DNA of 36,055 nt from Deltaproteobacteria bacterium (GTDB taxonomy: Bacteria > Myxococcota > B64-G9): NCBI GenBank assembly GCA_030591445.1, contig JAUVBB010000010.1, positions 1 through 36,055 of the forward strand. The letters are read 5' to 3'. A model generated the notes under the pieces. It was not told the DNA's origin. It made no database searches and saw nothing but the letters and a program-made list of their open reading frames with translations. Of the stretch, positions 8,970 through 27,638 are shown one piece after another; position 1 is the first letter of the stretch; each line of letters begins with the position of its first letter. A program made the position numbers and the translations under genes.

Positions 8970-8974
8970 GATAT

Positions 8975-8981
8975 TCCTCCC
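8975..8981 (-). promoter_or_regulatory. Ribosome binding site fixing the RHS gene start
   Basis: Read on the minus strand this is GGGAGGA, 5 nt before the ATG at 8969-8967. It supports the lipoprotein start over the in-frame ATG at 9023, which would add 18 residues before the signal peptide and bury the lipobox. Confidence 0.8.
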
Positions 8982-9171
8982 GGATAATGTAAGCATTCCA
9001 TTTGCCATCTTCTTATCAGCCAAGCCATGATACCCAGCGGACTCTTAATGGAAACAATCTAACCGATTTTTTTACCGCGCCCCCGCATGAATCCGTATTG
9101 TGCAAAAGCTTACAGAAAGCTGCAAGGAGTTTTGTAGTGATTTTTGCGACTGGAGCAGATTTGCTTCAGGG

Positions 9172-9297
9172 TCAGTTTTTCTTTTCGCGATCGGTCAGAA
9201 ACATCCAGAAGGGAATAAAGCCAACCAAGAAAATGGCGGCGACGATGTAGCAGGCGCCCTTGGTGGAGGTCAGGAAATCTTGCAGAACGAAGTCCAT
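9172..9297 (-). CDS. hmcD: HmcD-like small membrane subunit
   Basis: A 41-residue protein with one hydrophobic segment (ACYIVAAIFLVGFIPFWMFL) followed by a charged end (TDREKKN). It begins at an ATG 17 bp after the hmcC stop, with GGGAGA upstream, and is the last gene of the Hmc-like operon. HmcD of Desulfovibrio is likewise a very short single-span protein encoded right after HmcC, so size, topology and position all agree. It probably stabilises the membrane part of the complex. It is easily missed because it is so short and sits inside a longer frame overlapping hmcC. Confidence 0.75.
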   Translation of the reverse strand: MDFVLQDFLTSTKGACYIVAAIFLVGFIPFWMFLTDREKKN

Positions 9298-9314
9298 GGT
9301 TCCGTCTCCCGCGG

Positions 9315-10484: not shown

Positions 10485-11539
10485 GGGGAGTCCTCCTTAC
10501 CGGCTTGTTCGTCTTTGACCTTGGCTTCGGCCAAGGCCTTTTTCACCGCCGCCGCGATGGCTTTTTCTTTGTCCTTGCCAGCCTTGGTAGCGGCATCGGC
10601 CAATTTCTTTTTGGTCTCGTCGCTGGCCTTGGCCAGGGTGTCGGCCACCACCTGCTCCAGTTCGACCTTGGCCAAGCGGTCCTTACGCTTGGAAAAAGCG
10701 TAGAAGCCGGCCAGCAGGCCCGGATAGATGGTGATGACTAGCGGCACCACGGTGAGGTAACTAGAACCGATTTCCGGCAGAGAAGTATGGGTTACGCCCT
10801 CGTGCAAATCGAGTTCGCCAAAAGGCGTACCGCCGATGGTCAGCCAACTGGTGCCGCCAAACTCATGCTCGCCGAAGATATGATTCAGGTAACGTTCGGG
10901 TTGCTTGCGAATGCGCTCGCGGGCGATCTTGATCAGATCGGTACGCTTGCCGTACTTGATAGCGCCCATGGGACAAGCCTCGGCACAACCGGGTTGCTTG
11001 CCCTCTTTGATGCGGGGATAACACATGGTGCAGCGGCGCACCTCGGGAGTATATACGTTGTCGTATTCGTAGGACAAAGCATAATAGGGACAAGCCATGA
11101 CGCAATAGCGGCAGCCCACACATAGCTCGGGGTGATGCAAAACCGGGCCTTCCGGCGTCTTTTCAAAGGCGTTTACAAAGCACACCGCGGCACAACAGGG
11201 CTCGTTGCAATGCATGCACTGGTGCTTGCGATAGACGGCCGGTTGGTCGCCTTGGGCCTTACGGTAGCGATTGACTACCGTATACTCCCGCGGAGAAGTA
11301 CGCCGTTTGGTTTCGAACACTGACTGGTCTGCCAATGGAAGTTCCGCGGCCGGCTGTTCGTTGACCTCTTTGCAGGCCGCCTCACAAGAACGGCAACCCA
11401 CACACAAGCTGGTATCATGCAACAGACCATAGCGATCGGGATAGCCGGGGAAATGCTTGTAGCCGGCAGCTTTGGCGCCCCCGGCGGCTAGCGCGGTGGC
11501 GGCGACGCCCCCCAGGAATCCTCTACGGGAAATGCTCAT
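10481..11539 (-). CDS. hmcB: HmcB-like four-cluster ferredoxin subunit with TAT signal
   Basis: A 352-residue protein. The start at 11539 follows GGAGG and gives an N-terminal twin-arginine signal (SISRRGFLGG), so the protein is exported folded and works on the outer face. Four cysteine groups bind [4Fe-4S] clusters: CVGCRSCEAAC, CMHCNEPCCAAVC, CVGCRYCVMAC, and CTMC...CAEAC. A hydrophobic segment near the C-terminus (VVPLVITIYPGLLAGFYAF) could anchor it beside HmcC. An unusual Lys/Ala-rich helical tail of about 60 residues follows, which I do not associate with HmcB. It should relay electrons between the HmcA haems and the membrane subunits. It overlaps hmcA and hmcC by 4 bp each. Confidence 0.9.
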   Translation of the reverse strand: MSISRRGFLGGVAATALAAGGAKAAGYKHFPGYPDRYGLLHDTSLCVGCRSCEAACKEVNEQPAAELPLADQSVFETKRRTSPREYTVVNRYRKAQGDQPAVYRKHQCMHCNEPCCAAVCFVNAFEKTPEGPVLHHPELCVGCRYCVMACPYYALSYEYDNVYTPEVRRCTMCYPRIKEGKQPGCAEACPMGAIKYGKRTDLIKIARERIRKQPERYLNHIFGEHEFGGTSWLTIGGTPFGELDLHEGVTHTSLPEIGSSYLTVVPLVITIYPGLLAGFYAFSKRKDRLAKVELEQVVADTLAKASDETKKKLADAATKAGKDKEKAIAAAVKKALAEAKVKDEQAGKEDSP

Positions 11540-13041
11540 TTTTCCACCTCCTGAGCCGCCTCGGCGTGGCAATCGGTGCATCCCTGCTGCTTGAGGCCCA
11601 TTTGCTGGTGGCAACCCACACACTGCCGATGGTAGGCGGTGAACAGATCTGGTTGGTCCTTATCGGCGGTGCCTTTGGCATCATGGCAAGCACCACAGGC
11701 CGCCGGCCGTTCTCCCACCGGGCTGTGATGATGGCAGCCGGCGCACAGGGTCTCGGTCTTGCTATGCATGGCAGTAGCCAAGCGACTATCGACCACGTTC
11801 TGGTGCAAGGCGGCCACAATCTTGCGGTGCGGGAACTTGGCTGCCTGGTACTTTTTGGCCAAAGTGCCTATCTCCACCTGGGCGGGAAAATCGTGCGAAT
11901 CCGCGGGCAAATCGGCCAGCATCGTTTGGCTGGCCACCGGTTCGGGCAAGGCCAGTTTCTCGGCGCCTGGCTGCGGCCCGGCATGACATACCAGGCAAGC
12001 CGCTTCGCCTGGCGGCGGAGTCAGCACTTGGTGACAACCCCGACAAGCTTTCTTCGCCGATTCTTGGCTGTGGCAACCCACGCAACTGTGCTCGGAACTC
12101 GCCCGGTGATAGGCTTGCTCCAGGCTCACTCCCCCACCCTCGGCTACCGCTTCGACCTTATGACATTCAGAACAGGCCTTGAGCGTCTGGTGATGGCAAG
12201 TGGAACAATTTTTGGTCAGCGGTTCGTGCAACTCGTGATTGAAAAGCACCACCTTGCTGCTGGCCTCGGGGGCATGGATCCAGGTCAGGGTCGGCTGCTG
12301 TCTTTCCAGCCGCGGCACTTGCTTGAGTTTCTCAATGGCCTGCTGCTTGCCGGCATCGTGACAACCCGCGCATTCGATGGGCCCGGTCTCTTGTTTCTTT
12401 TCGCCGCGGGCTCGGTGACAACTGATACAAGCACGATGAGAGGCGTTGGCCAGCGAGAAATTCTTGCCGTCGTCTTCTTTGCCGTGACAATCGCGGCAGG
12501 CGCTTTCGGCCCCCTTCTTGTGAGCCAGGGTCTTGGTCGCTTCATCGTAGACATGATGGCAAGCACCGCAGTCGTCTACATAATTGCGCTCATGGCGATG
12601 ATGTAAAGAATAGTCAAAGGTCATCTGTTGCCAGGCCGATGGTGCTTCTTCCTGCCCGACATGACATTCGCCGCAAAGCAAGGGCCCGGTCTTTTTCCCG
12701 TCCCGGTCATGCTCCCGGTGACAAGCCATGCACTTTTGATGATAGTGCTCGGTGGCGGCCGTGTGGTCGGCAATGTCTGCCTCACGATGGAACAGCGGCA
12801 CCACCGTGCCTTGCTCATCGATGGGATGACAACTCTTACAAGCGTCTTTTTCACCAGAATCAACGACGACTTTGAGGTGCTGGGCATGGTCGAAGCGAAC
12901 CGGCGCCCGGCGCAAATCACCGGCCAAGCGAAGCTCGATGACGGCTGCACTCTGCGTTGCCGGCTCGGGTGGGGGCGGTCCGTAACACCCGCTCCATAGG
13001 ACCAGCAAGACGGTGCCGGTTATTTGTCTGACCCGGATCAT
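11536..13041 (-). CDS. hmcA: HmcA-like 16-haem high-molecular-weight cytochrome c
   Basis: 501 residues with sixteen CXXCH haem c motifs, the first CKSCH and the last CTDCH, plus many extra His for bis-His ligation. Sixteen haems in about 500 residues is the signature of HmcA of sulfate reducers. The start at 13041 follows GGAGGTGG and overlaps the hmcF stop by 4 bp. It yields a hydrophobic leader ending VLLVLWSGC, which looks like a lipoprotein signal although Trp at -3 is not canonical. The mature protein is periplasmic and would take electrons from soluble cytochromes or hydrogenase/formate dehydrogenase partners and pass them to HmcB. No such dehydrogenase lies in the window. Confidence 0.92.
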   Translation of the reverse strand: MIRVRQITGTVLLVLWSGCYGPPPPEPATQSAAVIELRLAGDLRRAPVRFDHAQHLKVVVDSGEKDACKSCHPIDEQGTVVPLFHREADIADHTAATEHYHQKCMACHREHDRDGKKTGPLLCGECHVGQEEAPSAWQQMTFDYSLHHRHERNYVDDCGACHHVYDEATKTLAHKKGAESACRDCHGKEDDGKNFSLANASHRACISCHRARGEKKQETGPIECAGCHDAGKQQAIEKLKQVPRLERQQPTLTWIHAPEASSKVVLFNHELHEPLTKNCSTCHHQTLKACSECHKVEAVAEGGGVSLEQAYHRASSEHSCVGCHSQESAKKACRGCHQVLTPPPGEAACLVCHAGPQPGAEKLALPEPVASQTMLADLPADSHDFPAQVEIGTLAKKYQAAKFPHRKIVAALHQNVVDSRLATAMHSKTETLCAGCHHHSPVGERPAACGACHDAKGTADKDQPDLFTAYHRQCVGCHQQMGLKQQGCTDCHAEAAQEVEK

Positions 13042-14366
13042 TCCGCCACCTCCTCTCCCTTGTCCATGCACTTGATCAGCATTTCGCTGATAAAGCTCAC
13101 GTGCATGTCCAGGTGGTAGTGGCCAATGATGTCTTCGATGCCACTGTGACAGTTGTGACAGGGGGTAACGATGGTATGGGCGCCAGTGGCGGCAAATTGC
13201 TCGGCTTTGACTCGAATGCTCTTCATGCGCGAGAGTTTCCAGGGCGGTCCGCAGTTGATGATGCCCCCGCCGGCGGCACAGCAATAGTTGTGCTCATAAC
13301 GGGGATCGACATCCCGAAAATCCTCACAGAGCGCGTTCATGAGGTAACGCAGCTTGTGATGTAATCCTCGGCCCCGGACAATATTGCAAGGATCTTGCAC
13401 CGTCACCGGGCCTTCGATTTTGCGGACGATCTTAATGCGTCCCTCTTTGATTAGATCGTAGTAGAACTCGACCGCGTGCACCATCTTGATGGGCGGCCGC
13501 TTCCAGCCCAGCCACTTGGGGCCGTCGTAGACCGCGCCGCGATAGGCATGGCCGCATTCGCCCATGACCACCCGCTTGACCTTGAGGCTCATGGCCCGCT
13601 CCCAGTGCAAGCGCTCGACCCGGCCCATGACCTCGAAGTCGCCCGAATACATGGCCATGTTGGAGTTGTCCCAACCGTCGAGGCTGGGCATGGTCCAGTC
13701 CATGTCGGCTACCTTCATGATGATGGCCATATTGGCCAAAAGCTGGGCCAGGATCTTGGGCTCGGGACCAATGACCGAATACATGATGTCGGCCCCTTCC
13801 TTGTCCAAGGGAATGCGCACGCCCGCCAATTCGTCGGCGGCGTCCTCTTCCTGCCAGATCAAGGTATCGATCCAGTCGTCGGGCTGAACCCACATTTGAT
13901 TCGAGGTCACCGCGTGGCTATTGGTGGTGTCTTGCAGATACTGCGGCACCACCCCTAGCAAACTGCATATGCGGCGCACCACCATAATCAGGTAGGCAAT
14001 ATCGATGCCGAAGGGGCAATACATGCTGCAGCGACGGCAGGCGCCGCATTCGGTAAAGGCAATGCGCGCGCATTTCTTGATGAACTCGGGCTCTACCCGC
14101 CCCTTGCGCTTGACCATCTCCCACAGGGTATCCTTGACCTTGGCCACCGGAGCAAAATCAGGATCTTTGTCCCGGGACAAATAGGTATGGCAACCCTCGG
14201 AGCACAAACCACAGTGCACGCAAGTCTCCAGGTACACTTTCAGTCGCGCGGCGCTTTCTTTCTTTAGTACTCGCAGGATGACTTTTTCGATCCGGTCGAC
14301 GGTCAGCTTCTTGATGGGCTCGTCGATGCCGGCATCTACCACTTGTTGATCTGCTAAATCGGCCAT
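13038..14366 (-). CDS. hmcF: HmcF/DsrK-like iron-sulfur protein with CCG domain
   Basis: 442 residues, no signal peptide, so cytoplasmic. Two [4Fe-4S] motifs lie at C49/52/55/59 (CVHCGLCSEGC) and C107/110/113/117 (CGACRRCSMYC). The C-terminal HdrD-type CCG region has GECGHA (271), DPCN (327), CCAAGGG (362-363) and PCHNC (403, 406). In HdrB/HdrD the CCG cysteines bind the catalytic iron-sulfur site for disulfide chemistry; HmcF, TmcB and DsrK are homologues thought to act on a thiol/disulfide partner such as DsrC. Here the CC pair is followed by AAGGG, where the two paralogues in this window have CCGGGG, a possible functional difference. It starts after AGGAAC, 19 bp downstream of hmcE. Confidence 0.88.
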   Translation of the reverse strand: MADLADQQVVDAGIDEPIKKLTVDRIEKVILRVLKKESAARLKVYLETCVHCGLCSEGCHTYLSRDKDPDFAPVAKVKDTLWEMVKRKGRVEPEFIKKCARIAFTECGACRRCSMYCPFGIDIAYLIMVVRRICSLLGVVPQYLQDTTNSHAVTSNQMWVQPDDWIDTLIWQEEDAADELAGVRIPLDKEGADIMYSVIGPEPKILAQLLANMAIIMKVADMDWTMPSLDGWDNSNMAMYSGDFEVMGRVERLHWERAMSLKVKRVVMGECGHAYRGAVYDGPKWLGWKRPPIKMVHAVEFYYDLIKEGRIKIVRKIEGPVTVQDPCNIVRGRGLHHKLRYLMNALCEDFRDVDPRYEHNYCCAAGGGIINCGPPWKLSRMKSIRVKAEQFAATGAHTIVTPCHNCHSGIEDIIGHYHLDMHVSFISEMLIKCMDKGEEVAE

Positions 14367-14385
14367 GTTCCTCTTTCCTTAAGAA

Positions 14386-15030
14386 TCACCAGTCACGTGC
14401 GTTACGTACGGCGCCAAAATCGCTGCCCATGAATGCGCGGGTAAACACGAACCAAAGCATGTGCGAGAGCCAAGTCAGGGGGATGGCGATCAACCACAAG
14501 GCCCCGGTCACAATATGTAGCACCATGGCCTGGCGGTAGGGCAGCCAATGCAAATGGGCAGCCAACCCGGTCAAGAAGGGAGCCGCCACCAGCAACAACA
14601 GGGCAAAATCCTTCCAGGTACTAACGTTGCGAACCTCGGGCGCGGCCACGCGCCGCAGGGCAAAAAAGACCACGGCAAACACCACGGTAAGCGACATGAC
14701 GTCGGCCAGCCCAGCCGGCAAGCTCCACCAGCTTATTCCCCAGTACTCTTGCCAGAGCACGGCATGTCCCATCACCAGCAGCGGGGTCAGCAGCAGGCAA
14801 ATATGAAAGACATAGGACACCAAAGTCACGACCGGCCGCAAGCGCTGACTGCGGCTAGACAAGGGAATCAGCCAGTGCATCAACGAGCGCAAACCGTACT
14901 TGGCACTCATGACCGGCAGCACTACCTTTTCCCTATCGGCCAGCCGGTACATCAAGATCAGCTTAACCAGGCAGCCAAGCACAAACACGGTCAAGGCGAC
15001 CCAACTGCCAATGCGTATGAGCATCTCCAT
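14386..15030 (-). CDS. hmcE: HmcE/TmcC-like cytochrome b (NarI family)
   Basis: 214 residues with about five membrane spans, NarI/DsrM type. His residues suited to haem b ligation lie in VFHICLL, VMGHAVL, VLHIVTG and LSHMLWF. The subunit would exchange electrons between haem b, menaquinone and the cytoplasmic HmcF, which is encoded next (19 bp gap). It begins 15 bp after the tmcD-like gene. Its closest counterpart in the window is 19350-20060, with which it shares the RSLMHWLIPL / ASLRWLIPV block between spans one and two. Confidence 0.85.
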   Translation of the reverse strand: MEMLIRIGSWVALTVFVLGCLVKLILMYRLADREKVVLPVMSAKYGLRSLMHWLIPLSSRSQRLRPVVTLVSYVFHICLLLTPLLVMGHAVLWQEYWGISWWSLPAGLADVMSLTVVFAVVFFALRRVAAPEVRNVSTWKDFALLLLVAAPFLTGLAAHLHWLPYRQAMVLHIVTGALWLIAIPLTWLSHMLWFVFTRAFMGSDFGAVRNARDW

Positions 15031-15045
15031 TTCTCTCGCCTCCGC

Positions 15046-16308
15046 TCAGCCCTGTCGGACTTGATCAACGGGCACTACTTGTCTGAAATAGGCGCCATTT
15101 TCCACAGCCCGAACCAGCAAATGTTTGCCGTCGGGACTAAAAATCGGTTCCCAGAGCTGGTTGAAACTACCCCAGAGCTTTCCGTCCAAGGCAATGGCGA
15201 ACACACCGTTTCTTTCCACTTTCGCCGCCACCTGGCTGCCGTCCGGACTAAAGACCGGGTCCCAGGCCATGTCGAAGCCCTCGGACCATTTCTTGCCATC
15301 GACCGCGATTCCCCAGCTTTCACCGTCTTTGCCTACCGCGGCTAGGCGATGACCGTCGGGAGAAAAGATCGGCGGCAAGACCAAGTCCTCAAAGCTGCAG
15401 CGCCAAGGATCATCGTCGCGGACCACGGTCCATTTGCCGTAAGCGGTCGCGGCCACTGCCGCAATGCCTTTGCCGTCTGGCTCAAAGGTTTGATGCCAGA
15501 GCTGGACATAGCGCCCTTTCCACAAGGGGCTGCCGTTTTCAACCAGGGTCCAGCCGCCGTCGACCTTCACCGGCAACACGATGCCACCATCGGGCCGGTA
15601 GCGAGGCGCCCAAATGCAACCGAATTTCGACTGCCAGACTTTGCCGTCCTGGGCCACGGTGTACTCGTTGATGTCTAAGCGAACCTCGGCGGCCACATGT
15701 TTGCCGTCGGGACTGATGGCCGGGGAATAGACGTTGATGAACTTCTGCTCCCAGGTCACGTCATCGAGGACCACCGACCAGGTACCCTCCATAAACTTTA
15801 CGATGTCGGCCTCGGGCAAGGCTTCGACCTGTACCAGCGCGGCCATGTGGGCACCGTCGGGGCTAAGTGAAAAATCCCGACAGGAGATGAACTTTTTCTC
15901 CCAGGCCTTGCCGTTGGCAACCAATGAATACTCCATGCCCTCTTTTACCTGCAGAGCAATCACGCTGCCGTCCTGGGAGAACTTCGGGTTCCAGGCAAAG
16001 TCGTAATCCTCGGGCCATTTCTCATCGTCGACGGCCGCCGACCACATATCGTCGACCCGCACCAGGGCAAAGAGCCGTCCGTCGGCGGTAAAACGCAGAC
16101 TCCAGGCCCTTTCGAAATCGTTTTCCCAAACGCCGCCGTTGACCCAGACCTTGGCGCTGCCCGCCTCGGGCACCACCACCACCGCGATTCGCTCGCCGTC
16201 GGGGCTGGCCACAAATTCGTGCACTTCTTGGAACTGCCCCGTCAAGTCGCCAAGCTCGGCCACTTTTTTCTTGCCGGGTTCCCAGTTCCAGCTTTTTCGG
16301 TCGAACAT
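15046..16308 (-). CDS. tmcD: TmcD-like tryptophan-rich beta-propeller protein
   Basis: 420 residues without signal peptide or membrane span. About eight repeats of roughly 45 residues follow the pattern W.P.FSPDG...AA.V......W.V.VDGK.W...F, with 23 Trp in total. This is a WD40/TolB-like beta-propeller, predicted cytoplasmic. The Tmc complex of Desulfovibrio includes a tryptophan-rich subunit, TmcD, with no defined role, and this protein fits by composition and neighbourhood. Here it heads an operon that is otherwise Hmc-like, which is unusual. ATG at 16308 follows AGGAGA and lies 20 bp after the sigma-54 regulator gene, so the two may be co-transcribed. Confidence 0.8.
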   Translation of the reverse strand: MFDRKSWNWEPGKKKVAELGDLTGQFQEVHEFVASPDGERIAVVVVPEAGSAKVWVNGGVWENDFERAWSLRFTADGRLFALVRVDDMWSAAVDDEKWPEDYDFAWNPKFSQDGSVIALQVKEGMEYSLVANGKAWEKKFISCRDFSLSPDGAHMAALVQVEALPEADIVKFMEGTWSVVLDDVTWEQKFINVYSPAISPDGKHVAAEVRLDINEYTVAQDGKVWQSKFGCIWAPRYRPDGGIVLPVKVDGGWTLVENGSPLWKGRYVQLWHQTFEPDGKGIAAVAATAYGKWTVVRDDDPWRCSFEDLVLPPIFSPDGHRLAAVGKDGESWGIAVDGKKWSEGFDMAWDPVFSPDGSQVAAKVERNGVFAIALDGKLWGSFNQLWEPIFSPDGKHLLVRAVENGAYFRQVVPVDQVRQG

Positions 16309-16328: not shown

Positions 16329-17690
16329 TCAGGCAGACGGATCTTTAGTATCCGGTGCGAGAATCCCGTACTTCTTCATCTTGCGCCAAAGAGTATTGCG
16401 TGAAATCCCCAGTTCTTTGCTGGCCTGGCCGCGACGGTAGTCACACTGCTCTAGCGTAGCTCGGATTGCCTGGGCCTCGGCGTCATCCAAGGGCCGATCC
16501 CGGACGGCCGTTTTTTCTGGCTCCCGGTCCAACGAAGAAAGAATATGTTGCGGCAGATCATCCATCTGAATCAAGTTGTCGGTACAAACCACAAAGGCAT
16601 GCTCAATGGCATTTTCCAGTTCGCGAATGTTGCCCGGATACTGGTAACGCATCAACACGGCCATCACTCGCTCGGAACAGCCGCTGATTCGGCGCCCCTG
16701 CAAATGGTTGAATCGTTCGATGAAATACTGGACCAAGAGCGGAATGTCTTCCTTGCGCTCTCCCAAAGGAGGCAGGCTGAGATGGACCACGCAGAGCCGA
16801 TAAAACAAATCCTGGCGAAACTTGCGTCGCGATACTTCTTGGGCCAAGTCCCGGTTGGTGGAAGCAATCACCCGGACACTGGCCCGGACGGTCGTGTTTG
16901 AACCCAAGGGTTCATACTCTTTTTCTTGCATGACCCGCAGCAGCTTCACCTGCATGGCGCGGGTCAACTCACCCACTTCGTCCAGAAGCAAAGTGCCGCC
17001 TTCGGCCATGGCAAAGCGTCCTAGCTTGTCTTGTTTGGCGTCGGTAAAAGCGCCCTTTTTATATCCGAACAGCTATGACTCGATGAGGTTGTCGGGCACC
17101 GCGCCACAGTTCAAGGCCACAAAGGGCTTGTCTTTCCAGGGGCCGAGATTGTGAATGGCCCGGGCAATCAGCTCTTTGCCGGTTCCGGACCCGCCCTCAA
17201 TCAATACCGTGCTTCGACTGTTGGCAACCAAAGGCAAGAGATCAAAAATCTGCCGCATGCGGTGATTCTTGGAGACGATATCCTCAAAAACATAACTATT
17301 GTTAAGTTTTTTCCTGAGTTCGGTTACCTGCCGCAGATCCCTAAACATCTCCACGCCACCGATGATCTTGTCATCTTCATTGATCAGGGCCGCCGTCGAC
17401 ATGGCAATGGGGATGACATTGCCATCCTTGGCGGTAATGCGAACCTCTTGATCCTCAATCCGCCGGCCGGTGTTAATGCTGCTTTTAAGCGGACAGTTGG
17501 TTTGACACAAGTCGGTACGAAAAATACTAGAGCAAGGTTTGCCCACCGCTTCGCCACAGCTGAAACCGGTTAACTCGGAAGCCATCCGATTGAACGAGGT
17601 AATGGTCTGGTTGGAATCAATGGTGAAAATACCCACAGGAATGGCATCAAAAATCAGCGGGAAAAACCGTTCGTCCAAAACGACTGTCAC
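16329..17690 (-). pseudogene. PAS-sigma-54 activator-Fis HTH regulator, broken by in-frame TAG
   Basis: The frame encodes a bacterial enhancer-binding protein: a PAS domain (about 10-120) with a C-x7-C-x3-C motif (CSSIFRTDLCQTNC), an AAA+ domain with Walker A GGSGTGKE, GAFTDA loop and Walker B GTLLLDEVGEL, and a Fis-type HTH (GQASKELGISRNTLWRKM). A single TAG at 17075-17073 replaces the codon expected for Glu in ES-E-LFGYKKGAFTDA; GAG to TAG is one base change. Both halves are in the same frame, so there is no frameshift. I prefer the GTG at 17690 (GAGGAT upstream) to the ATG at 17741. The regulator is divergent from a sigma-54 promoter and probably controlled one or both redox operons. It may be a recent nonsense mutation or a sequence error. 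Confidence 0.85.
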
Positions 17691-17718
17691 TTTGTTATCC
17701 TCACATCCATGCTCCAAT

Positions 17719-17868
17719 ATTGTAACAAATAAATGCGACATGTCTCGTTACTGGAACATAACAGAAAACATAGTACACCTTATTCCATTAAAAGTAAACC
17801 GACGCAAGCAATTTTTACTGTTCATATTTCGGGTAGTTACAATGTTTTTCGATATCTTGTACATGTCT
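17719..17868. promoter_or_regulatory. Candidate enhancer sites for the sigma-54 activator
   Basis: In the AT-rich divergent gap, ATTGTAAC (17719-17726) is matched by its reverse complement GTTACAAT (17836-17843). The palindrome GACATGTC (17737-17744) is echoed by ACATGTCT (17861-17868). They lie roughly 40 to 185 bp upstream of the -24 element, where enhancer-binding proteins usually bind. Binding is inferred from position and symmetry only. Confidence 0.35.
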
Positions 17869-17901: not shown

Positions 17902-17917
17902 TGGCACGATGATTGCT
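17902..17917 (+). promoter_or_regulatory. Sigma-54 (-24/-12) promoter
   Basis: TGGCACGATGATTGCT matches the RpoN consensus TGGCAC-N5-TTGCW at every defined position, with the GG at 17903-17904 and the GC at 17915-17916. It lies 54 bp upstream of the ATG of the TmcB-like gene at 17971, leaving room for a 5' UTR of about 40 nt with a GGATGAGG ribosome site. A divergent gene encodes a sigma-54 activator, which supports function. It should drive the 17971-22806 complex and possibly the signalling genes after it. Confidence 0.88.
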
Positions 17918-17970: not shown

Positions 17971-19317
17971 ATGAAAGCACAAGCGAAATACAGCTATCAC
18001 GTCGAAGCGGTGGATGGGCAAGAGCGGCCCCGGAGATTTCTCGAGGCCTTTGCGGCCATTCTTGAACACTCCAACTATGGTCCAGTCCTGGAACACTATA
18101 CCCGAGTGTCGGCAAAATGCTCACGCTGCACCGCCTCCTGCCAGGTGTATGAGGCCAGCGGCGACCCGCGTGACATCCCCTGTCACCGCACTGAGCTGCT
18201 GCTGAAAGTATACCGCCGATACTTCACCCTGGCCGGTCAACTCAAGGCGCGCCTGTACGACTATTACACCTTGACCGACGCCCATATCGATGAGATGGCC
18301 GAAGAATTCTGGCGCTGTACTGCCTGCCGGCGCTGCAAGTTATCTTGTCCCATGGGTATCGATCACGGCATGGTCGCCCATCTCGCCCGCTGGGTTATGT
18401 CGGAAATCGACATCGTGCCCAAAGCTCTTTTGGTCTCGGTCAGAGAGCAGCTCGAAGGAAAATCCAAGAACACCTCGGCCATCCCGGTCGCGGCCATCAA
18501 AGATACCTTGGAGTTTCTGGAAGAAGAGCTGGAAGAAGTATTTCCCGACCAGAAGATCAAATTCCCCGTGGATGTCGAAGGCGCCAAGTATGTGTTTTTT
18601 CCGGCGGTTTCCGACTACTTGATGGAGGCTGATACCCTGATGGGAAATGCCGCCATGATGCATGCCATCGACGCCTCCTGGACCGTGGGTACTCAGAATT
18701 TGGATGGCATCGACTACGGTCTCTTTTACTCCGATCGGATGTGGGAGCGAATCATCAAGGCCCAGCTTGCCGAAATCAAGCGCCTGGGCGGCCAAGTCAT
18801 GCTGATTGGCGAGTGTGGGCACGCCTCGCGCTCGGCTCGCGAAGGCATGCAAAATTTCATTGCTCCCGAAGATCGGGTACCGGTGGTCAACATCATGGAA
18901 CTGGCGCACGAAAAATTCAGGCAAGGAAAGCTCAAACTCAAACCTGACGTCATCGAGGAGCGAACCACCTACCACGATCCCTGCAACATCGCCAGAACCG
19001 GTTGGATCGTCGAGCAACCCCGCGTGCTCCTGCGCCACATTTGCAAAGATTTTGTGGAAATGGATTCTCACGGCGTCAACGGCATCTGCTGCGGTGGCGG
19101 TGGCGGTACGGTATCCATCGATGAAATTCACGAATTCAGGATGATGATTGGCGGCAAGACCAAAGCGGAGCAAATCCGCAAAACCGGGGCCCACTATGTG
19201 GTGACCCCTTGCGCCAACTGCAAGAAACAAGTCGATGAAATCATCAAGGCCCACAAATTGCCAACCAACCGGGTCGGTTTGCACGACTTGTTGATCAAGG
19301 CCATCGATTTCTCCTGA
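17971..19317 (+). CDS. tmcB: TmcB/HmcF-like iron-sulfur protein with CCG domain
   Basis: 448 residues, cytoplasmic by lack of a signal. The first Fe-S motif is spaced CSRCTASC (C50/53/57) with C71 as likely fourth ligand; the second is CTACRRCKLSC (C116/119/122/126). The HdrD-like CCG part has GECGHA (282), DPCN (338), CCGGGGG (373-374) and PCANC (414, 417). It is homologous to the minus-strand hmcF and to 34593-36055, but the first motif spacing and full CCGG place it nearer TmcB/HmcF than DsrK. Expected role: electron exchange between the membrane subunits and a cytoplasmic disulfide or thiol partner. It is the first gene after the sigma-54 promoter. Confidence 0.87.
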   Translation: MKAQAKYSYHVEAVDGQERPRRFLEAFAAILEHSNYGPVLEHYTRVSAKCSRCTASCQVYEASGDPRDIPCHRTELLLKVYRRYFTLAGQLKARLYDYYTLTDAHIDEMAEEFWRCTACRRCKLSCPMGIDHGMVAHLARWVMSEIDIVPKALLVSVREQLEGKSKNTSAIPVAAIKDTLEFLEEELEEVFPDQKIKFPVDVEGAKYVFFPAVSDYLMEADTLMGNAAMMHAIDASWTVGTQNLDGIDYGLFYSDRMWERIIKAQLAEIKRLGGQVMLIGECGHASRSAREGMQNFIAPEDRVPVVNIMELAHEKFRQGKLKLKPDVIEERTTYHDPCNIARTGWIVEQPRVLLRHICKDFVEMDSHGVNGICCGGGGGTVSIDEIHEFRMMIGGKTKAEQIRKTGAHYVVTPCANCKKQVDEIIKAHKLPTNRVGLHDLLIKAIDFS

Positions 19318-19349: not shown

Positions 19350-20060
19350 ATGGAACACTGGTTAGAATGGGCGCGCGGCCCACTTTTTCGGGCCTCATTC
19401 GCTATTATGATCTTGGGACTGCTGCGGGTCCTGGTCCTGCAGGCCATCAGCCTGTTTGGCCTGATCCGGCAAGCCAAGCGCAACCAACGCAAGATCCCTT
19501 ATGCCGTGGTCGCCAAGGCCTCTCTTCGTTGGCTGATTCCTGTAGGAAAACTATTCGAACGCCGGGCGGTTTTTAGTCTGACCTCGGTTCTGTTCCACAT
19601 TTGCATCATCGTGGTCCCGATTTTATTGGGAGCGCATATCTTGTTGTGGGAAAGAGGCATCGGCCTGAGCTGGCCGGCCATCAGCATGCAGTTGGCAGAC
19701 ATCTTAACATTGGGGGCCATCGTCACCGGCCTGGCTCTGTTTGTGATCCGCTTGAGCGTCATGGCCAACCGGGCCATTAGCCGGGCCCAAGATTATGTCT
19801 GGCCCTTGCTGATTGTGCTGCCTTTCCTGAGTGGGTATCTGGCTATGCACCCGGCCATCAACCCCTTCTCCTATGAAGCCAGCATGCTCATCCATGTACT
19901 TTCCGCCAACCTGATTTTCTTGTTGCTGCCCTTCTCCAAGCTGAGTCATATGGCCCTGTTTCCCGCCACGCAGCTGGTCTCGGAACTGGGCTGGTTTCTC
20001 AAGCCCGACTCGGCCCAGAAGGTGATGACCACCCTACACAAAGAGAACGAAGCGATATGA
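19350..20060 (+). CDS. tmcC: TmcC/HmcE-like cytochrome b (NarI family)
   Basis: 236 residues with about five hydrophobic spans. His in SVLFHICI, LLGAHILL, MLIHVLSA and KLSHMALF can serve as haem b ligands, as in NarI/TmcC proteins. It sits 32 bp after the TmcB-like gene with AAGGAC upstream, and its stop overlaps the next ATG by 4 bp (20057-20060). It should carry electrons across the membrane between haem b, quinone and the TmcB-like subunit. Confidence 0.85.
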   Translation: MEHWLEWARGPLFRASFAIMILGLLRVLVLQAISLFGLIRQAKRNQRKIPYAVVAKASLRWLIPVGKLFERRAVFSLTSVLFHICIIVVPILLGAHILLWERGIGLSWPAISMQLADILTLGAIVTGLALFVIRLSVMANRAISRAQDYVWPLLIVLPFLSGYLAMHPAINPFSYEASMLIHVLSANLIFLLLPFSKLSHMALFPATQLVSELGWFLKPDSAQKVMTTLHKENEAI

Positions 20061-20905
20061 GCTACCAGAACATGGCAATTTTGACCGATGTCACCCTTTG
20101 CATCGGCTGCGAACAATGCGTCGAGGCCTGCCAAGAGGCCAACCGACTGCCCAAGGAAAAACCCTGGCGCTGGGTGAAAAACATTACCGATCTTTCCTCG
20201 GCACGCTGGACCACTTTGCGAAAAATAAAGGCGCCCGCTGGCAGCAGATACGTCCGTCGCCAGTGCCGGCATTGCCTGGAGCCGGCCTGTGTCGAGGCCT
20301 GCATCGTTGGCGCCTTGACCAAAACCGCCGAGGGTCCGGTTATCTACGACCGGGACATCTGCATCGGCTGTCGTTACTGCATGATCGCTTGTCCCTGGGA
20401 GATTCCCCGCTATAGCTGGGAAGACACGGTACCCTATATCCAGAAGTGCGATATGTGTTACCAGCGGGTCCGCGAAGAACAAAAACCGCCGGCCTGCGTG
20501 TCTGCCTGTCCGACCCAGGCCACTATTTTTGGCGAACGCGATCAATTGCTTGCAGAAGCCCGCCGGCGCCTGGCGGCCCAGCCAGACAAATACATCCAGA
20601 AGATCTGGGGAGAAAAAGAAGTGGGCGGGACCTCGGTGCTCTACATTTCCGATGTCGATATCTGCCTATGCGATCTCAAGCAGAAGATCACCGACACCAC
20701 CCCCATGCCTGGGCGAACTTTCAAGATCCTACGGCACATGCCCTCGGTTTTTGGCGGCATGGCCGTCACCATGGGCGGGATCTGGTGGGTAATCGAGCGC
20801 CGCCAGAAACTGATGGCTAAGCCCAAGCCCGAGTCCGAGCCCGCCTCCGAACCAGAATCCGGCTCGACCGATGCCAACTCCAATGAGAAAGATCAGCAAT
20901 CATGA
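20057..20905 (+). CDS. HmcB-like four-cluster ferredoxin, no export signal
   Basis: 282 residues with four [4Fe-4S] groups: CIGCEQCVEAC, CRHCLEPACVEAC, CIGCRYCMIAC and CDMC...CVSAC. Unlike the paralogue at 10481-11539 it has no twin-arginine leader; it starts MSYQNMAILTDVTLCIGC, so it is predicted to lie on the cytoplasmic side unless carried out by a partner. A hydrophobic patch (GGMAVTMGGIWWVI, about 232-245) could associate with the NrfD subunit, and the tail is Pro/Glu/Ser-rich. It overlaps both neighbours by 4 bp. The missing signal sets the likely sidedness of this complex apart from Hmc. Confidence 0.87.
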   Translation: MSYQNMAILTDVTLCIGCEQCVEACQEANRLPKEKPWRWVKNITDLSSARWTTLRKIKAPAGSRYVRRQCRHCLEPACVEACIVGALTKTAEGPVIYDRDICIGCRYCMIACPWEIPRYSWEDTVPYIQKCDMCYQRVREEQKPPACVSACPTQATIFGERDQLLAEARRRLAAQPDKYIQKIWGEKEVGGTSVLYISDVDICLCDLKQKITDTTPMPGRTFKILRHMPSVFGGMAVTMGGIWWVIERRQKLMAKPKPESEPASEPESGSTDANSNEKDQQS

Positions 20906-22806
20906 GTCTTCGTGGCCTGAAAACATTGCTTTGGTTTCTTTGTGGCGCGGGTTTGACCGTCATCCTCCTGCGAATCATCCATGGTCCGGGCTCGGTAGTA
21001 GCCCTGACCGACATCATCCCCTGGGGCCTATGGAAAGGCGGCGGCGTTGTCGCCTTGGTGCCCATCGGCGGCGCCGGCTTCACCCTGGCGGCCATGGTCT
21101 ATATCTTTCATTGGAAACGCTACCAAGTTTTGGCCCGCGGCGCGGTATTGCTGGGCCTGGTCTGTTACAGCAGCGTAGCCGCCGGCTTGACCTTCGACAT
21201 CGGTATCTGGTGGCGTATCGTCTACCCGCTCTTTTATTGGCAATTCCACTCCACGTTGTTTGAGATTGCCTGGTGCATCATGCTCTATTTGGGCGTGTTG
21301 GCCGTCGAATTCAGCCATGCCATCGTCGAAAAATTCAACATGCCCCGCCTGCGCTCCATCATTGAGAAGACCAGCATCGTCTTTGTCATTGCCGGCATTT
21401 CGCTGTCGACTTTGCACCAGTCCTCGCTAGGCACCATGTTCTTGGCCACGCCTTACCGCCTGCATCCGCTGTGGCACACCGACTGGCTACCGGGCTTTTT
21501 CTTGCTTACCTCGATCGGCCTCGGCTGTCTGACCATCAGTTGGCTCACCCTGGTTGTATTTCGTCTCTACAAGGTCGAACAACCCATGGACGCCATCTCG
21601 GGCCTGGGCCGCATCGCCGCCGTGGTGCTGGGCTTCTATGGCTTGCTTAAGTTTGTCGAGATCCTGATCGCCGGCGAAGGCGCCTTGTTACTAACGCTTG
21701 ATTGGAACGTGGCCAATTTCTGGTTCGAGATCCTGCTAAGCGCGCTGATTCCGGTTGCCCTGCTCGCCTTTCCCCGATTCAGACAGAGCGCGACCGCCAT
21801 GTTTTGGATTGCCAGCACCGCCATCGTGGGCATGTCGCTCAACCGAGTCAACGTCGCCGGTTTGGCCACCCTCGATGCCACCAGTGCCACCTACTTCCCC
21901 ATCTGGCCAGAGTGGGCCGTCACCCTGGGTATTCTCTCCTTTGCCGGCCTGGTCTATTTGTTCTGCGTAGAACGGTTTGAGGTCTTTTCAGCTATTGATG
22001 AGCAAGCGGTCAAGCGGGTCTACGCCAGTGAGCAAGTGGATCACGCCGACTGGAAGACCTTGTTCTTTCGCATTCCTCATGCCGAATCAAGATTGTATTC
22101 CGCGGTCTTCGTGCTGGCCATGGGCCTGGCCTTAGGCTGCGTCCCCGACGGTTCCGTGTTCGGGGAACAACCCCAGAAGACACCGGTAACCGGAAGTCGC
22201 GTAGTAGAAGTCGCCAAGGTCGAAAACCCCCAGGGCCCGGGATCGCAGTTTATGATCGGAGCCCAGGCATTGGCGGAACATGCGACCGGGCACACAGACG
22301 TGTTCGTTATTGACGCCAACCGCCAGGCCGAGTTCGTGCTTTTCGATCACGAATCCCACATCGACGGCTTGGTCGCCCAAGGCGCGGATTGCAGCACTTG
22401 CCACCACATGAACAAACCCTATGACAAGGCCACCGGCTGTCACCAATGCCACGCCGACATGTACCTGGAGACCGACATTTTCAACCACGATTTGCACCAG
22501 AAGAAGCTGGGCAACAATGCCGGTTGCGCCAAATGCCATGTCGATGACAGCTTGCCCAAAGTCCGCAAAAACACCACCGCCTGCGCCGAATGCCATCCGG
22601 GCATGCGCCAAAATGACGCGGTCGGTGATCCGCAAAAGCGCAACCTGGCGCCCGGATACATGGACGCCATGCACGGACTATGCATCGGCTGTCACCAAGA
22701 ACGAAAGGACACTTTGGCAGAGAAAAACGAGGACTTTGCCCGTTGCACCCAATGCCACCGCGACACGCCTGGTTTCGATAGCCCGGCTTGGAACGATTTA
22801 CGCTAA
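20902..22806 (+). CDS. NrfD-like membrane subunit fused to six-haem cytochrome c
   Basis: 634 residues in one frame. Residues 1-365 form an NrfD/HmcC-type membrane protein with about nine to ten spans (IIPWGLWKGG, LHQSSLGTMF, LNRVNVAGL, matching HmcC). A further hydrophobic segment at about 398-412 ends LALGC (Cys413), which looks exactly like a lipoprotein signal in the middle of the chain. The C-terminal part has six CXXCH motifs (497, 513, 542, 561, 594, 615) with His ligands in FDHESH and FNHDLH as in cytochrome c3/c7. The cytochrome should face the periplasm and replace a separate TmcA/HmcA subunit. I see no internal start with a ribosome site at the junction, so a real fusion is favoured. 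Confidence 0.87.
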   Translation: MSLRGLKTLLWFLCGAGLTVILLRIIHGPGSVVALTDIIPWGLWKGGGVVALVPIGGAGFTLAAMVYIFHWKRYQVLARGAVLLGLVCYSSVAAGLTFDIGIWWRIVYPLFYWQFHSTLFEIAWCIMLYLGVLAVEFSHAIVEKFNMPRLRSIIEKTSIVFVIAGISLSTLHQSSLGTMFLATPYRLHPLWHTDWLPGFFLLTSIGLGCLTISWLTLVVFRLYKVEQPMDAISGLGRIAAVVLGFYGLLKFVEILIAGEGALLLTLDWNVANFWFEILLSALIPVALLAFPRFRQSATAMFWIASTAIVGMSLNRVNVAGLATLDATSATYFPIWPEWAVTLGILSFAGLVYLFCVERFEVFSAIDEQAVKRVYASEQVDHADWKTLFFRIPHAESRLYSAVFVLAMGLALGCVPDGSVFGEQPQKTPVTGSRVVEVAKVENPQGPGSQFMIGAQALAEHATGHTDVFVIDANRQAEFVLFDHESHIDGLVAQGADCSTCHHMNKPYDKATGCHQCHADMYLETDIFNHDLHQKKLGNNAGCAKCHVDDSLPKVRKNTTACAECHPGMRQNDAVGDPQKRNLAPGYMDAMHGLCIGCHQERKDTLAEKNEDFARCTQCHRDTPGFDSPAWNDLR

Positions 22807-22843: not shown

Positions 22844-23239
22844 ATGTCTAAGAAAAACATAGTGCTGGTCGACGACGAGGCCGACGTCATCACCTTCCTG
22901 CAAACCGTGTTGGAAGATCATGGCTATGCGACCTGGCCGGCAATCAACGCCGCCGAGGGCTTGAAACTCATTAAGGAACATAAACCAGATCTGGTCTGTC
23001 TCGACGTCTTGATGCCCGAAGAGTCCGGTATCTCGATTTTTCAAAAGATCAAAACCGACCCGGACTTCCAGCAACTGCCGGTAATTATTCTCAGCGGTCT
23101 GAACCTCTCCCAGGATTTAGAGCAAGTACAATTTCGTAAACTAGCCGACGGCACCATTCTGCCGGCCCCAGAAGGCATTCTGGAGAAACCGGCCAACGCC
23201 GAACAATTTTTGGCGTTGGTGGACAAGATACTAGGCTAA
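22844..23239 (+). CDS. Single-domain response regulator (receiver)
   Basis: 131 residues forming one CheY-like receiver: VDDEAD acidic pocket, phospho-acceptor Asp in CLDVLMPEESG (about 54), Ser in ILSG and Lys in LEKP. There is no output domain, so it acts by protein contact or in a phosphorelay. Its TAA overlaps the kinase ATG by one base (TAATG at 23239), implying a cognate pair. It starts 37 bp after the NrfD-cytochrome fusion on the same strand. Confidence 0.9.
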   Translation: MSKKNIVLVDDEADVITFLQTVLEDHGYATWPAINAAEGLKLIKEHKPDLVCLDVLMPEESGISIFQKIKTDPDFQQLPVIILSGLNLSQDLEQVQFRKLADGTILPAPEGILEKPANAEQFLALVDKILG

Positions 23240-25053
23240 TGGAAAAAACCTTCCCAAATCTGCCCGTGGCAGTTCGCAACTGGATAGGCCGACAACTTTT
23301 CGAAGCCGTGCCCAACAACATTGTGGTTATCGATCGGGATTACCGGGTTATTCTGGCCAACTCCAATTTCAAGGAGGTCTTCGGCAAGGCGGAAGGGAAA
23401 CACTGTTACCAAGCCTACAAAAACCGCAGCGCGATTTGCGAAAACTGTATGGCAGCGCAAACCTTCGAAGACGGCAAGGTGCGCATCAACGATGAGGCCG
23501 GCTTCGATCGCAATGGCCGGCCCGCCCACTATGTGGTGCATATCGCGCCGGTCTACGACGAGACCGGCCGGGTGGCCTATGTGATTGAGATGTCCTATGA
23601 CGTCACCGAGAACAAATCCCTGCAAAAAGAATACAACATCTTGTTCGAGCGGGTACCCTGTTACGTCGCCGTCATCAACCGTAATTTGCAAATTGTCCGG
23701 GCCAACGAAAAGCTGCGCGATACCTTCGGCGAGACTCTTGGTGAGCACTGCTACGAGGTATACAAGAACCGCAGCGAGCAATGTCCCGATTGTCCGGCGC
23801 TTAAAACTTTCGCCGACGGCAAGCCCTACCAGTCAGAGCAAGTGGGCATCGCCAAGAACGGGGAAATCACCCGCTATGTAGTCTCGACCGCCCTAGTGTC
23901 TCGGAGCGGACAAGATTTCAGCCATGTGGTGGAGATGTCGGCCGATGTAACCGCCCTGCATGAACTCTCAGCAAAACTTTTACAAGAGAGCAACTTCAGC
24001 AAGTTGCTCATTGGCAACACCCTGGATGCGGTAGTAGCCGTCGATGCCTCCGGTCGCGTCAACATCTTCAACCGCGCCGCCGAGACCCTGTTTCAGGTAA
24101 GCGCAAAAGAGGTCATCGGCAAATCCAAGGGCCGCCGCTTTGTGCCCCGCGAATTTCTCGACCTCATTCAGAACGGGGGCAACAGCCTCAAGCTGGAAGA
24201 ATCTATGGTCAAAAACGCTGCCCATGAAGAGATCCCCATCCGCTTTTCCGGTTCGGTCTTACGCGACGGGGACAAAGTGATTGGCGGCGCCGGCTTCATC
24301 CAGGACTTGCGCGAACGCAAGGCCATGGAGCAGGAATTGCTAGAAAACGAACGCTTGGCCGCGGTGGGACAAACCGTGGCCCAATTGGCTCACGGTATCA
24401 AGAACATCCTCACCGGCCTGCAAGGGGGCATGTACGTTATCAAGTCGGGCCTCAAGGCCGGCTCGCAGCCCCGCATCGACAAAGGCTGGGACATGCTCGA
24501 ACGCAACGTCGACCGGATCACGGTGCTGGTCAAGGGCTTCCTTAGCTTTTCCAAGGGCCAGGTCCCCGAAGTCGCTTTCACCAACCCCAACGCCATCGCC
24601 AAAGAAGTTTTTCAACTCTACCGTGACACGGCCAAACAAAAAGGCATCACGGTCCGCTTCCTGCCCGGCAAGGCCCTGGCCAGCGCCTATATGGACGCGG
24701 AAAAAATTCACACTTGCCTGGCCAACCTGGTCTCTAATGCCATCGACGCCTGTCAAACCACTGAAAACCAGGACTGTTCGGTCACTCTTGATGTTAAAGA
24801 AGAGAATGATACCATCATTTACGAAGTGGCTGACACGGGCTGCGGCATGGAATATGAAATCAAAAATAAGGTCTTCACTACTTTTTTCACCACCAAGGGC
24901 CTGGGCGGCACCGGCTTGGGGCTGATGGTCACCAGAAAAATTATCCAAGAGCACGGCGGTAAAATCACCGTCCATTCGAATCCGGGTAAGGGCTCCGTCT
25001 TCCGCATTGAGTTGCCGCGCCGACGATTGCCTCAACCGCAAACGGGGAGATAA
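23239..25053 (+). CDS. Three-PAS cytoplasmic histidine kinase with Cys-motif PAS domains
   Basis: 604 residues with no membrane span. PAS1 (about 20-125) and PAS2 (about 138-240) each contain the same block CYxxYKNRSxxCxxC (Cys56/67/70 and 171/182/185). PAS3 (about 255-360) lacks it. The kinase core has the H box AQLAHGIKNILTG (His385), N box NLVSNAIDAC, and G boxes DTGCGM and GLGGTGLGLMV. The paired Cys motifs suggest thiol redox sensing or a metal/Fe-S site; this is inference. In Desulfovibrio the tmc genes also have sensor-kinase and receiver genes beside them, as far as I recall. It most likely reports redox state to the flanking receivers. Confidence 0.9.
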   Translation: MEKTFPNLPVAVRNWIGRQLFEAVPNNIVVIDRDYRVILANSNFKEVFGKAEGKHCYQAYKNRSAICENCMAAQTFEDGKVRINDEAGFDRNGRPAHYVVHIAPVYDETGRVAYVIEMSYDVTENKSLQKEYNILFERVPCYVAVINRNLQIVRANEKLRDTFGETLGEHCYEVYKNRSEQCPDCPALKTFADGKPYQSEQVGIAKNGEITRYVVSTALVSRSGQDFSHVVEMSADVTALHELSAKLLQESNFSKLLIGNTLDAVVAVDASGRVNIFNRAAETLFQVSAKEVIGKSKGRRFVPREFLDLIQNGGNSLKLEESMVKNAAHEEIPIRFSGSVLRDGDKVIGGAGFIQDLRERKAMEQELLENERLAAVGQTVAQLAHGIKNILTGLQGGMYVIKSGLKAGSQPRIDKGWDMLERNVDRITVLVKGFLSFSKGQVPEVAFTNPNAIAKEVFQLYRDTAKQKGITVRFLPGKALASAYMDAEKIHTCLANLVSNAIDACQTTENQDCSVTLDVKEENDTIIYEVADTGCGMEYEIKNKVFTTFFTTKGLGGTGLGLMVTRKIIQEHGGKITVHSNPGKGSVFRIELPRRRLPQPQTGR

Positions 25054-26131: not shown

Positions 26132-27484
26132 TCAACAATCAGGCCAGCAAACTTTACGGAAGCATTGCCACTGACCAGCATCGCAACCGGCGGGCAGGGT
26201 TAGCGCATCGCAGTCGCTGGCATCCAGACAGTCGAAGTCAGCACAATCGGTCGGGCAGGACTCCGGGCATTCGCCGGCGGTGGGGTCGCAAGTCCCGTCC
26301 CCACATACGTCCTGCTCACAGACCCGGTCGCAGGTTTCGCTGGCCGCGTCACAAACCCAATGCCCCAGACCGGCGCAAAAGTTCCCTCTTTCGGCGTACC
26401 AAGCGTTCAGGAAACAATCGGCTACCCCGAGTTGGCAGGATCCAACCACACAGTCAGAGGGACAGGTCTCTCCATCCTCTCCCTCATGCGGTTCGCAGAT
26501 GGCGTTGCCGCAGGGCCCATCGCATTGTGCCGTGCAGGTATAGACCCCGGCCAGACAGTCCCAGTGGCCCTCGCAAGCGCTGGGCCAGCCTTTGGTCAGG
26601 GCGCAGCTTTCGTCACCGAAGCAAAATCGAGAAAGGCAATCTTCCGGACAAGCCGGGCCTTCCCATGTCTCACAGGAGTCGTCGCCACAGGCGATGTAGT
26701 CGCACACGCCCTGGCACAGGCCGTCTGCACAAGTCCAGTAACCAGAGCAAGGCAGCGGGAAGTCGTAAACGGTACAGTTGTCGGCATCGGCGCAAAGCAG
26801 ATCACAATCAGTGAGGCAGGTGTCGACGGTCTCTCCCTCGGCGCAAATACCGTCGCCACAGCCCAGGTCATCACAAACGCGGGTGCAGGTGTCCCGCTCG
26901 CATTGAAAGCGGCCCCCGCAGAGTTCCTCCCACAGCCAGTCGGTACAGTCGGCATCATTCTCACAGCAGACCGGGCTGCAGGTCCCGTCCAAACACTCCC
27001 AGGCGGTCACATTGCCTTCGCAGGCAGCCAACTCAGGACAATCCGCGTCAATCTCGCAAGCGGGACAAACTGTCTTACAGATGTTGTTTGTGCACTGCCA
27101 ATGCCCGTCGTCCTCATCACAGCCGGCATCGGTTGGCCAAGCCTGGCTTTCGCAATCCGCCACCGCGTGGCAGCAATCAGCGATCTCTTCGTTTACACAG
27201 AACCAGCTTTGGTCGCAGTAGTCCGAGGTGCAGATATCCGCATCATGGCAGTCGCTATCGGTCTCACAACCGTCTTTACAGACCGGTACACAGACAAAGT
27301 TCATGCATTCCCAATAACCATTTTCTTCGCTGCAGCCGGTATCCCCCGGCCAGCTCCGAGTTCGACAGTCCGAAGCCACGTCGCACTCTTTGTAGACCGG
27401 ATCGCAATCACAGTGGACCAAACTTCCCGCCGATACGCCAAACAGCAGAACGGACAATACCAACTGCTTCAAATAGCCCATCAT
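26132..27484 (-). CDS. Secreted cysteine-rich repeat protein
   Basis: 450 residues with about 73 Cys (near one in six). The N-terminus is a signal sequence (MMGYLKQLVLSVLLFGVSAG). Two repeat types are visible: DC....W....GC....G.W.C....C..VC, repeated throughout, and CGDG.C...E....C..DC with four variants (LGCGDGICAEGE, CGDDSCETWEG, CGNAICEPHEG, CGDGTCDPTAG). Such disulfide-rich proteins are typical of secreted proteins in Myxococcota-like genomes; I cannot assign a role. The N-terminal Cys region of the RHS lipoprotein has a similar flavour. The start at ATG 27484 (or the adjacent 27481) is chosen over an upstream GTG because the GGGGTGGAG site lies directly before it. Confidence 0.85.
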   Translation of the reverse strand: MMGYLKQLVLSVLLFGVSAGSLVHCDCDPVYKECDVASDCRTRSWPGDTGCSEENGYWECMNFVCVPVCKDGCETDSDCHDADICTSDYCDQSWFCVNEEIADCCHAVADCESQAWPTDAGCDEDDGHWQCTNNICKTVCPACEIDADCPELAACEGNVTAWECLDGTCSPVCCENDADCTDWLWEELCGGRFQCERDTCTRVCDDLGCGDGICAEGETVDTCLTDCDLLCADADNCTVYDFPLPCSGYWTCADGLCQGVCDYIACGDDSCETWEGPACPEDCLSRFCFGDESCALTKGWPSACEGHWDCLAGVYTCTAQCDGPCGNAICEPHEGEDGETCPSDCVVGSCQLGVADCFLNAWYAERGNFCAGLGHWVCDAASETCDRVCEQDVCGDGTCDPTAGECPESCPTDCADFDCLDASDCDALTLPAGCDAGQWQCFRKVCWPDC

Positions 27485-27638
27485 GATCTCCACCCCTTTG
27501 TCGCAAGATGAGTTTCTTACCGTTCTTATTCACACCCACAACCAAGGCCCTAGTCTGTGATTCGACTCACCTTTCTAAGAATGCTATGATGCCCACCGAA
27601 TTTGCCTGCAGTCAACGGGGGTGCGGCAGGGGGCAGGA

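Follow-up and report, generated by a model that had tools for sequence, protein, structure and literature searches.

An NrfD-type membrane subunit fused to a six-haem cytochrome, encoded in a dsr-linked operon of Myxococcota and other bacteria

A gene in a 36,055-nucleotide stretch of DNA from a member of the Myxococcota (contig JAUVBB010000010.1; the whole stretch is referred to as the window) encodes an NrfD-type membrane domain and a six-haem cytochrome c domain as one protein, here called PJ. It is the last gene of a four-gene operon encoding a DsrK-like protein (K), a NarI-like protein (M), an HmcB-like protein (O) and PJ. We consider, with moderate confidence, that PJ serves both as membrane subunit and as cytochrome subunit in an accessory electron-transfer complex, K-M-O-PJ, associated with dissimilatory sulfite reductase (Dsr). 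A preliminary description of the window had recognized the fusion, which stands. It had also read the junction as a lipobox in a possible polyprotein, which is not supported, and it had passed over the operon, the linkage to dsr genes and the lack of a Tat signal in the Fe-S subunit.

Results and Discussion

Domain organization of the fused protein

The reading frame of PJ runs from ATG to stop without interruption and specifies 634 residues. The translation and the profile matches bear out the earlier statement that a single frame unites an HmcC-like membrane domain with a cytochrome containing six CXXCH motifs. An assembly error or missed stop codon was ruled out, as the same joined frame was seen in 42 recovered proteins. 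An ATGA overlap at 20902-20905 joins PJ to O, and a like overlap occurs one gene earlier. The coordinates of all features are given in Table 1.

Table 1. Features of the operon, the fused protein and neighboring genes in the window.
Feature	Position	Strand	Basis
Sigma-54 promoter-like site TGGCACGATGATTGCT	17902..17917	+	53 nt before K; sole match in the window, 0.09 expected
K, DsrK/HdrD-like protein with Fer4 and CCG domains	17971..19317	+	DsrK model 258 bits, below cut-off of 400; Pfam CCG; conserved gene order
M, NarI-like cytochrome b (TmcC/HmcE-like)	19350..20060	+	TmcC 118.9 bits, HmcE 112.7 bits
O, HmcB-like [4Fe-4S] protein without Tat signal	20057..20905	+	HmcB model matched from its position 36 (249 bits); start fixed by ATGA overlap with M
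PJ, fused NrfD and hexahaem cytochrome gene	20902..22806	+	634 aa; profile matches, fused relatives
PJ residues 1-358, NrfD/HmcC-like part, ten predicted helices, N-in	20902..21975	+	AlphaFold2 helices; K/R distribution; best Foldseek match to ACIII ActC
PJ residues 394-413, predicted 11th transmembrane helix (the "lipobox-like" segment)	22081..22140	+	Mean AlphaFold2 pLDDT 91 for residues 401-410; Cys413 at 22138-22140
PJ residues 475-620, cytochrome domain with six CXXCH plus six additional conserved His (483, 486, 502, 529, 532, 591)	22324..22761	+	Pfam; alignment
Response regulator (22844-23239) and PAS histidine kinase (23239-25053)	22844..25053	+	Conserved downstream neighbors
Divergent PAS/sigma-54 activator, two ORFs owing to one in-frame stop	16329..17741	-	Homologues adjoin the operon in L007, L018 and L163
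DsrM2/DsrK2-like pair, K part running off the contig end	33646..36055	+	DsrK 325.8 bits (cut-off 400), DsrM 44.5 bits

Residues 9-364 were matched by the NrfD-type models PRK10881/HybB (207.6 bits), HmcC (198.5 bits) and QrcD (83.6 bits). Judged by these scores, the nearest kin of the NrfD part within the NrfD superfamily are HybB and HmcC. The HmcC score is far below the cut-off of 550 bits for the HmcC equivalog NF045714. The DsrP equivalog NF045798 did not match the fused protein at E 0.01, and it matched the separate HmcC of the window weakly. Members of the NrfD/PsrC superfamily have eight to ten helices in an NrfD fold; AlphaFold2 placed ten helices in the NrfD part of PJ plus one more at residues 394-413. 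The best structural matches of the NrfD part using Foldseek were ActC and ActF (E 5e-9 for ActC of alternative complex III, ACIII). A BFVD search returned no matches, and a plasmid search returned only partial matches, confined to the NrfD domain (hybB, for example), with none spanning the fusion.

The C-terminal domain (residues 475-620) was identified as a class III cytochrome c by Pfam Cytochrom_CIII (47.4 bits, cut-off 22.9) and also scored above the cut-off for Cytochrome_C7 (30.9 bits, cut-off 24.8). Its CXXCH motifs are at residues 497, 513, 542, 561, 594 and 615. Exactly six His residues outside these motifs are conserved in at least 41/42 sequences; therefore bis-His ligation of all six haems is predicted, and with it a role in electron transfer rather than catalysis. 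AlphaFold2 modelled the haem domain poorly, with much of it at pLDDT under 50, and this part of the model was set aside. The genome of the window encodes a second fused paralogue, L002 (G000:C265:11325-13169), with five haems. In L002 the third CXXCH reads CAAID and His529 is replaced by Ala, so that both sites are gone together. This one instance suggests that haem site 3 pairs with His529.

Distribution and origin of the fusion

The first scan of species genomes yielded 16 fusion loci in Myxococcota, Planctomycetota, Latescibacterota, Acidobacteriota and unplaced bacteria. Wider searches raised the number of proteins with the six-haem domain to 42, including that of the window; 2/42 were cut off by contig ends ahead of the NrfD part. 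The fusion family spans bacteria of at least four phyla. Above 500 bits against a profile of the fused protein, all recovered NrfD proteins carry the six-haem domain (one paralogue has five haems), and below 480 bits every one is unfused or joined to another cytochrome. A free six-haem gene of the same kind was not seen beside unfused NrfD genes within the stretches examined. In a tree computed from the NrfD part by itself, using a quick method with no bootstrap, the 39 usable fused rows formed one side of a branch (SH-aLRT 99, one change). The simplest account is therefore a single origin of the fusion, followed by its spread through descent or transfer.

The recovered fused proteins support the earlier suggestion of an in-frame union of two ancestral modules. 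Relatives that always have two genes had been named as evidence against it; when homologues were compared for fused versus separate genes, close relatives always had one. A literature search of papers available without subscription found no description of the NrfD-hexahaem fusion.

Other NrfD-cytochrome fusions were encountered. At L005/L006, L026, L033 and L085 an NrfD protein is joined to a different cytochrome with 11-14 haems; these form a separate clade, and their Fe-S partner bears a Tat signal where visible. In an Acidobacteriota sample, L113, L116 and L129 join NrfD to a three-haem domain. These lie outside the six-haem clade, so fusion of NrfD to a cytochrome seems to have had more than one origin.

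The K-M-O-PJ operon and its link to dsr genes

The order K-M-O-PJ was found in 25 genomes whose contigs reach far enough. dsrA was present in 24/25 genomes with the K-bearing operon and in 0/6 genomes lacking K (Fisher 1e-5, a value that ignores kinship and is drawn from incomplete MAGs). The K-bearing genome without dsrA, G229, has a canonical DsrK (738 bits). G747 has its dsrA broken into two frames, and its score falls just under the cut-off. In a sample of 195 genomes from the window's phylum, 4 had the fusion and 9 had dsrA, and all 4 are within the 9 (Fisher 2e-6, not corrected for descent); 5/9 dsrA genomes in this phylum are without the fusion.

The two are also neighbors. In G580 the genes for a response regulator, a kinase, K, M, O, PJ, DsrA and DsrB follow one another on one strand, with the fusion gene ending just 5' of dsrA. 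The same contig carries a canonical DsrK and a DsrK2-like gene. In G378, G747, G107 and G093 the fusion, dsrA, a canonical DsrK and a DsrK2-like gene likewise share a contig. In the genome of the window, a canonical DsrK (733 bits) and dsrA are on another contig. A canonical DsrK was above the cut-off in 25/28 genomes examined. Because it is present in most genomes, the operon is not needed for Dsr as such, and K-M-O-PJ looks like an accessory Dsr-linked complex. Paralogues dsrM2/dsrK2 lying upstream of dsrAB are noted by Hausmann et al. 2018 (PMC6018796); the K-M-O-PJ complex was not found in the passages searched.

A different reading is that the core M-O-PJ is a menaquinol oxidase feeding periplasmic or outer membrane cytochromes in extracellular or general respiration, with the dsr linkage reflecting shared lineages and genomic islands. 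At six loci (L011, L012, L013, L014, L016 and L020) M is without K ahead of it, and those genomes are without dsrA, which means that the core can have another use. The Myxococcales loci with M-O-PJ and no K fit a respiratory role, as do five Planctomycetota loci (L009, L011, L012, L019 and L021), in genomes without dsrA, where a 23-haem cytochrome gene lies directly 3' of the fusion gene. We nevertheless regard this reading as rather unlikely, given that most recovered loci bear K in genomes with dsrA and that five genomes have the fusion and dsrA on one contig. The same five Planctomycetota loci limit the earlier claim that the fusion removes the need for a separate cytochrome, which holds for the operon of the window, where there is no other cytochrome c gene.

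The sigma-54 motif ahead of K was found near K in 5/25 relatives. In the divergent activator the in-frame stop lies just before the GAFTDA motif, and its homologues are longer single ORFs; the stop could mark a true pseudogene, be recoded, or come from a sequencing error. By eye, the respiratory genes of the window are flanked by very large RHS/YD-repeat-like proteins (2520-9023, minus strand) and a Cys-rich, secreted-looking protein (26132-27493, minus strand).

The junction segment and topology

The hydrophobic segment reported at the junction, SRLYSAVFVLAMGLALGC (residues 396-413), is present and ends in LALGC, as had been described. Its identity as a lipobox did not hold. Lipoboxes are described by a permissive PROSITE-type pattern and by a strict pattern, [LVI][ASTVI][GAS]C; the end of the segment satisfies the first and fails the second. 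Column 413 among 40 fused proteins is Cys in 3, Leu in 26, Phe in 6 and other residues in 5. Cys is found in the window, L023 (65% identical) and L007 (59%), and Leu in the next sister, L018 (56%). By alignment, Cys413 is thus lineage-specific, its three bearers being close relatives. The conserved lipobox with Cys at +1 that marks bacterial lipoproteins was not found in the family.

The topology prediction that the preliminary description had proposed as a check located the 11th helix, which would place the haem domain outside. On average each protein has ∼19 K/R on the loops assigned to the cytoplasm by an N-in topology versus ∼6 on the opposite side, and this bias is alike in fused and unfused NrfD proteins. 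Because an even number of NrfD helices leaves the C-terminus inside, an extra helix is needed for the haem domain to be periplasmic. The junction segment is most likely an uncleaved tether, the 11th helix, bringing the haem domain to the periplasm. An inverted orientation of the NrfD part, which would suit a cytoplasmic Fe-S subunit, is disfavored by the K/R pattern.

Cleaved cytochrome polyproteins do exist, as in Bradyrhizobium FbcH (cytochrome b/c1), and all three Cys413 proteins meet the permissive pattern. Signal peptidase II might then cut before Cys413 and free a lipoprotein cytochrome, at least in the small clade of the window. We consider this very improbable: 37/40 fused proteins, including sister L018, are without the Cys, none of the three bearers meets the strict pattern (0/3), and the helix is conserved without Cys and is needed for the topology.

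Comparison with known complexes

K-M-O-PJ is a Dsr/Hmc-type complex in which the NrfD and cytochrome subunits are one protein. It resembles DsrMKJOP in its modules (an HdrD-like K, a NarI-like M, a multi-cluster ferredoxin O, an NrfD-type P and a haem c subunit) and in its linkage to dsrAB. It differs in that P and the cytochrome are joined, in its HmcC/HybB-like NrfD part, which the DsrP model does not match, in an O without a Tat signal, and in its coexistence with a canonical DsrK in most genomes. K itself is below the cut-off of the DsrK equivalog NF045796. DsrJ is an unusual trihaem cytochrome, according to the title of Grein et al. 2010 (cited in PMC10504309); PJ, with six haem sites and six further conserved His rather than three haems with unusual ligation, is not a DsrJ.

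HmcABCDEF and TmcABCD of Desulfovibrio share HmcB-, HmcC-, HmcE/TmcC- and HmcF/TmcB-type subunits with the operon. Here there is no separate HmcA or TmcA, and six haems replace sixteen or four. That the operon is a plain Hmc complex with HmcA fused to HmcC is hardly credible. The NrfD part does match HmcC, O matches HmcB and the HmcA model gave a weak match (33.9 bits) over part of the haem domain, but all these scores lie far under the curated cut-offs. Moreover, the window encodes a separate, unfused Hmc/Tmc operon with better scores on the other strand (9172-16308; HmcC 564.9 bits, HmcA 445 bits), which serves as an internal control, and in the tree the fused proteins are set off from its HmcC as a clade of their own.

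QrcABCD and alternative complex III also combine a ten-helix NrfD subunit, a multihaem cytochrome and an Fe-S subunit. Their cytochrome is separate and they are without K and M; K-M-O-PJ in turn is without their molybdopterin-like subunit.

The Fe-S subunit O

A Tat signal is missing from O in 37/37 readable fused loci, and the start of O is fixed by its overlap with M in the window and several relatives. HmcB beside unfused Hmc-type proteins bears a Tat signal. Absence of the signal as a hallmark of the fusion was weakened by 36/75 unfused relatives that also are without one. Many of these have a GcvH-like gene upstream; at L078, L079, L081, L083, L099, L100, L118, L120, L116 and L129 a gene that looks GcvH-like by eye lies just 5' of the genes for a Tat-less Fe-S protein and an NrfD protein.

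In all groups, K/R residues are more numerous at the C-terminal side of the tail helix of O. NarH docks to NarI, and by analogy O may be cytoplasmic and dock to M or K; otherwise it would be exported by an unfamiliar route. Characterized Qrc-type and Dsr Fe-S partners are on the periplasmic side (PMC8076601; PMC13059093). Those of Hmc-type NrfD proteins are periplasmic too, and the missing signal on O counts against the complex proposed below. A tentative and somewhat doubtful suggestion is that O stays cytoplasmic while the tethered six-haem domain sits in its stead at the periplasmic quinone site of NrfD. If true, this O-inside arrangement of a Dsr-linked complex would be unlike any characterized NrfD complex.

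Proposed role

In the accessory Dsr-associated complex that we favor, the ten NrfD helices would hold a menaquinone site, and the uncleaved 11th helix would carry the bis-His six-haem domain into the periplasm. M would supply a cytochrome b, and O would be a multi-cluster ferredoxin. K would be a cytoplasmic DsrK/HdrD-like CCG protein whose probable target is a thiol/disulfide partner, for example the DsrC trisulfide. With these roles the complex would thus link periplasmic cytochromes and menaquinone to cytoplasmic sulfite/sulfide chemistry, and the direction of electron flow may vary with the organism.

In sulfate respiration, the complexes that supply sulfite reduction with electrons, and the membrane side from which they do so, are an open question. 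Here the covalent link between cytochrome and quinone subunit fixes their stoichiometry and should make the electron route easier to test. K-M-O-PJ is a widespread and apparently undescribed complex that tracks dsrAB in several phyla beyond the usual sulfate reducers.
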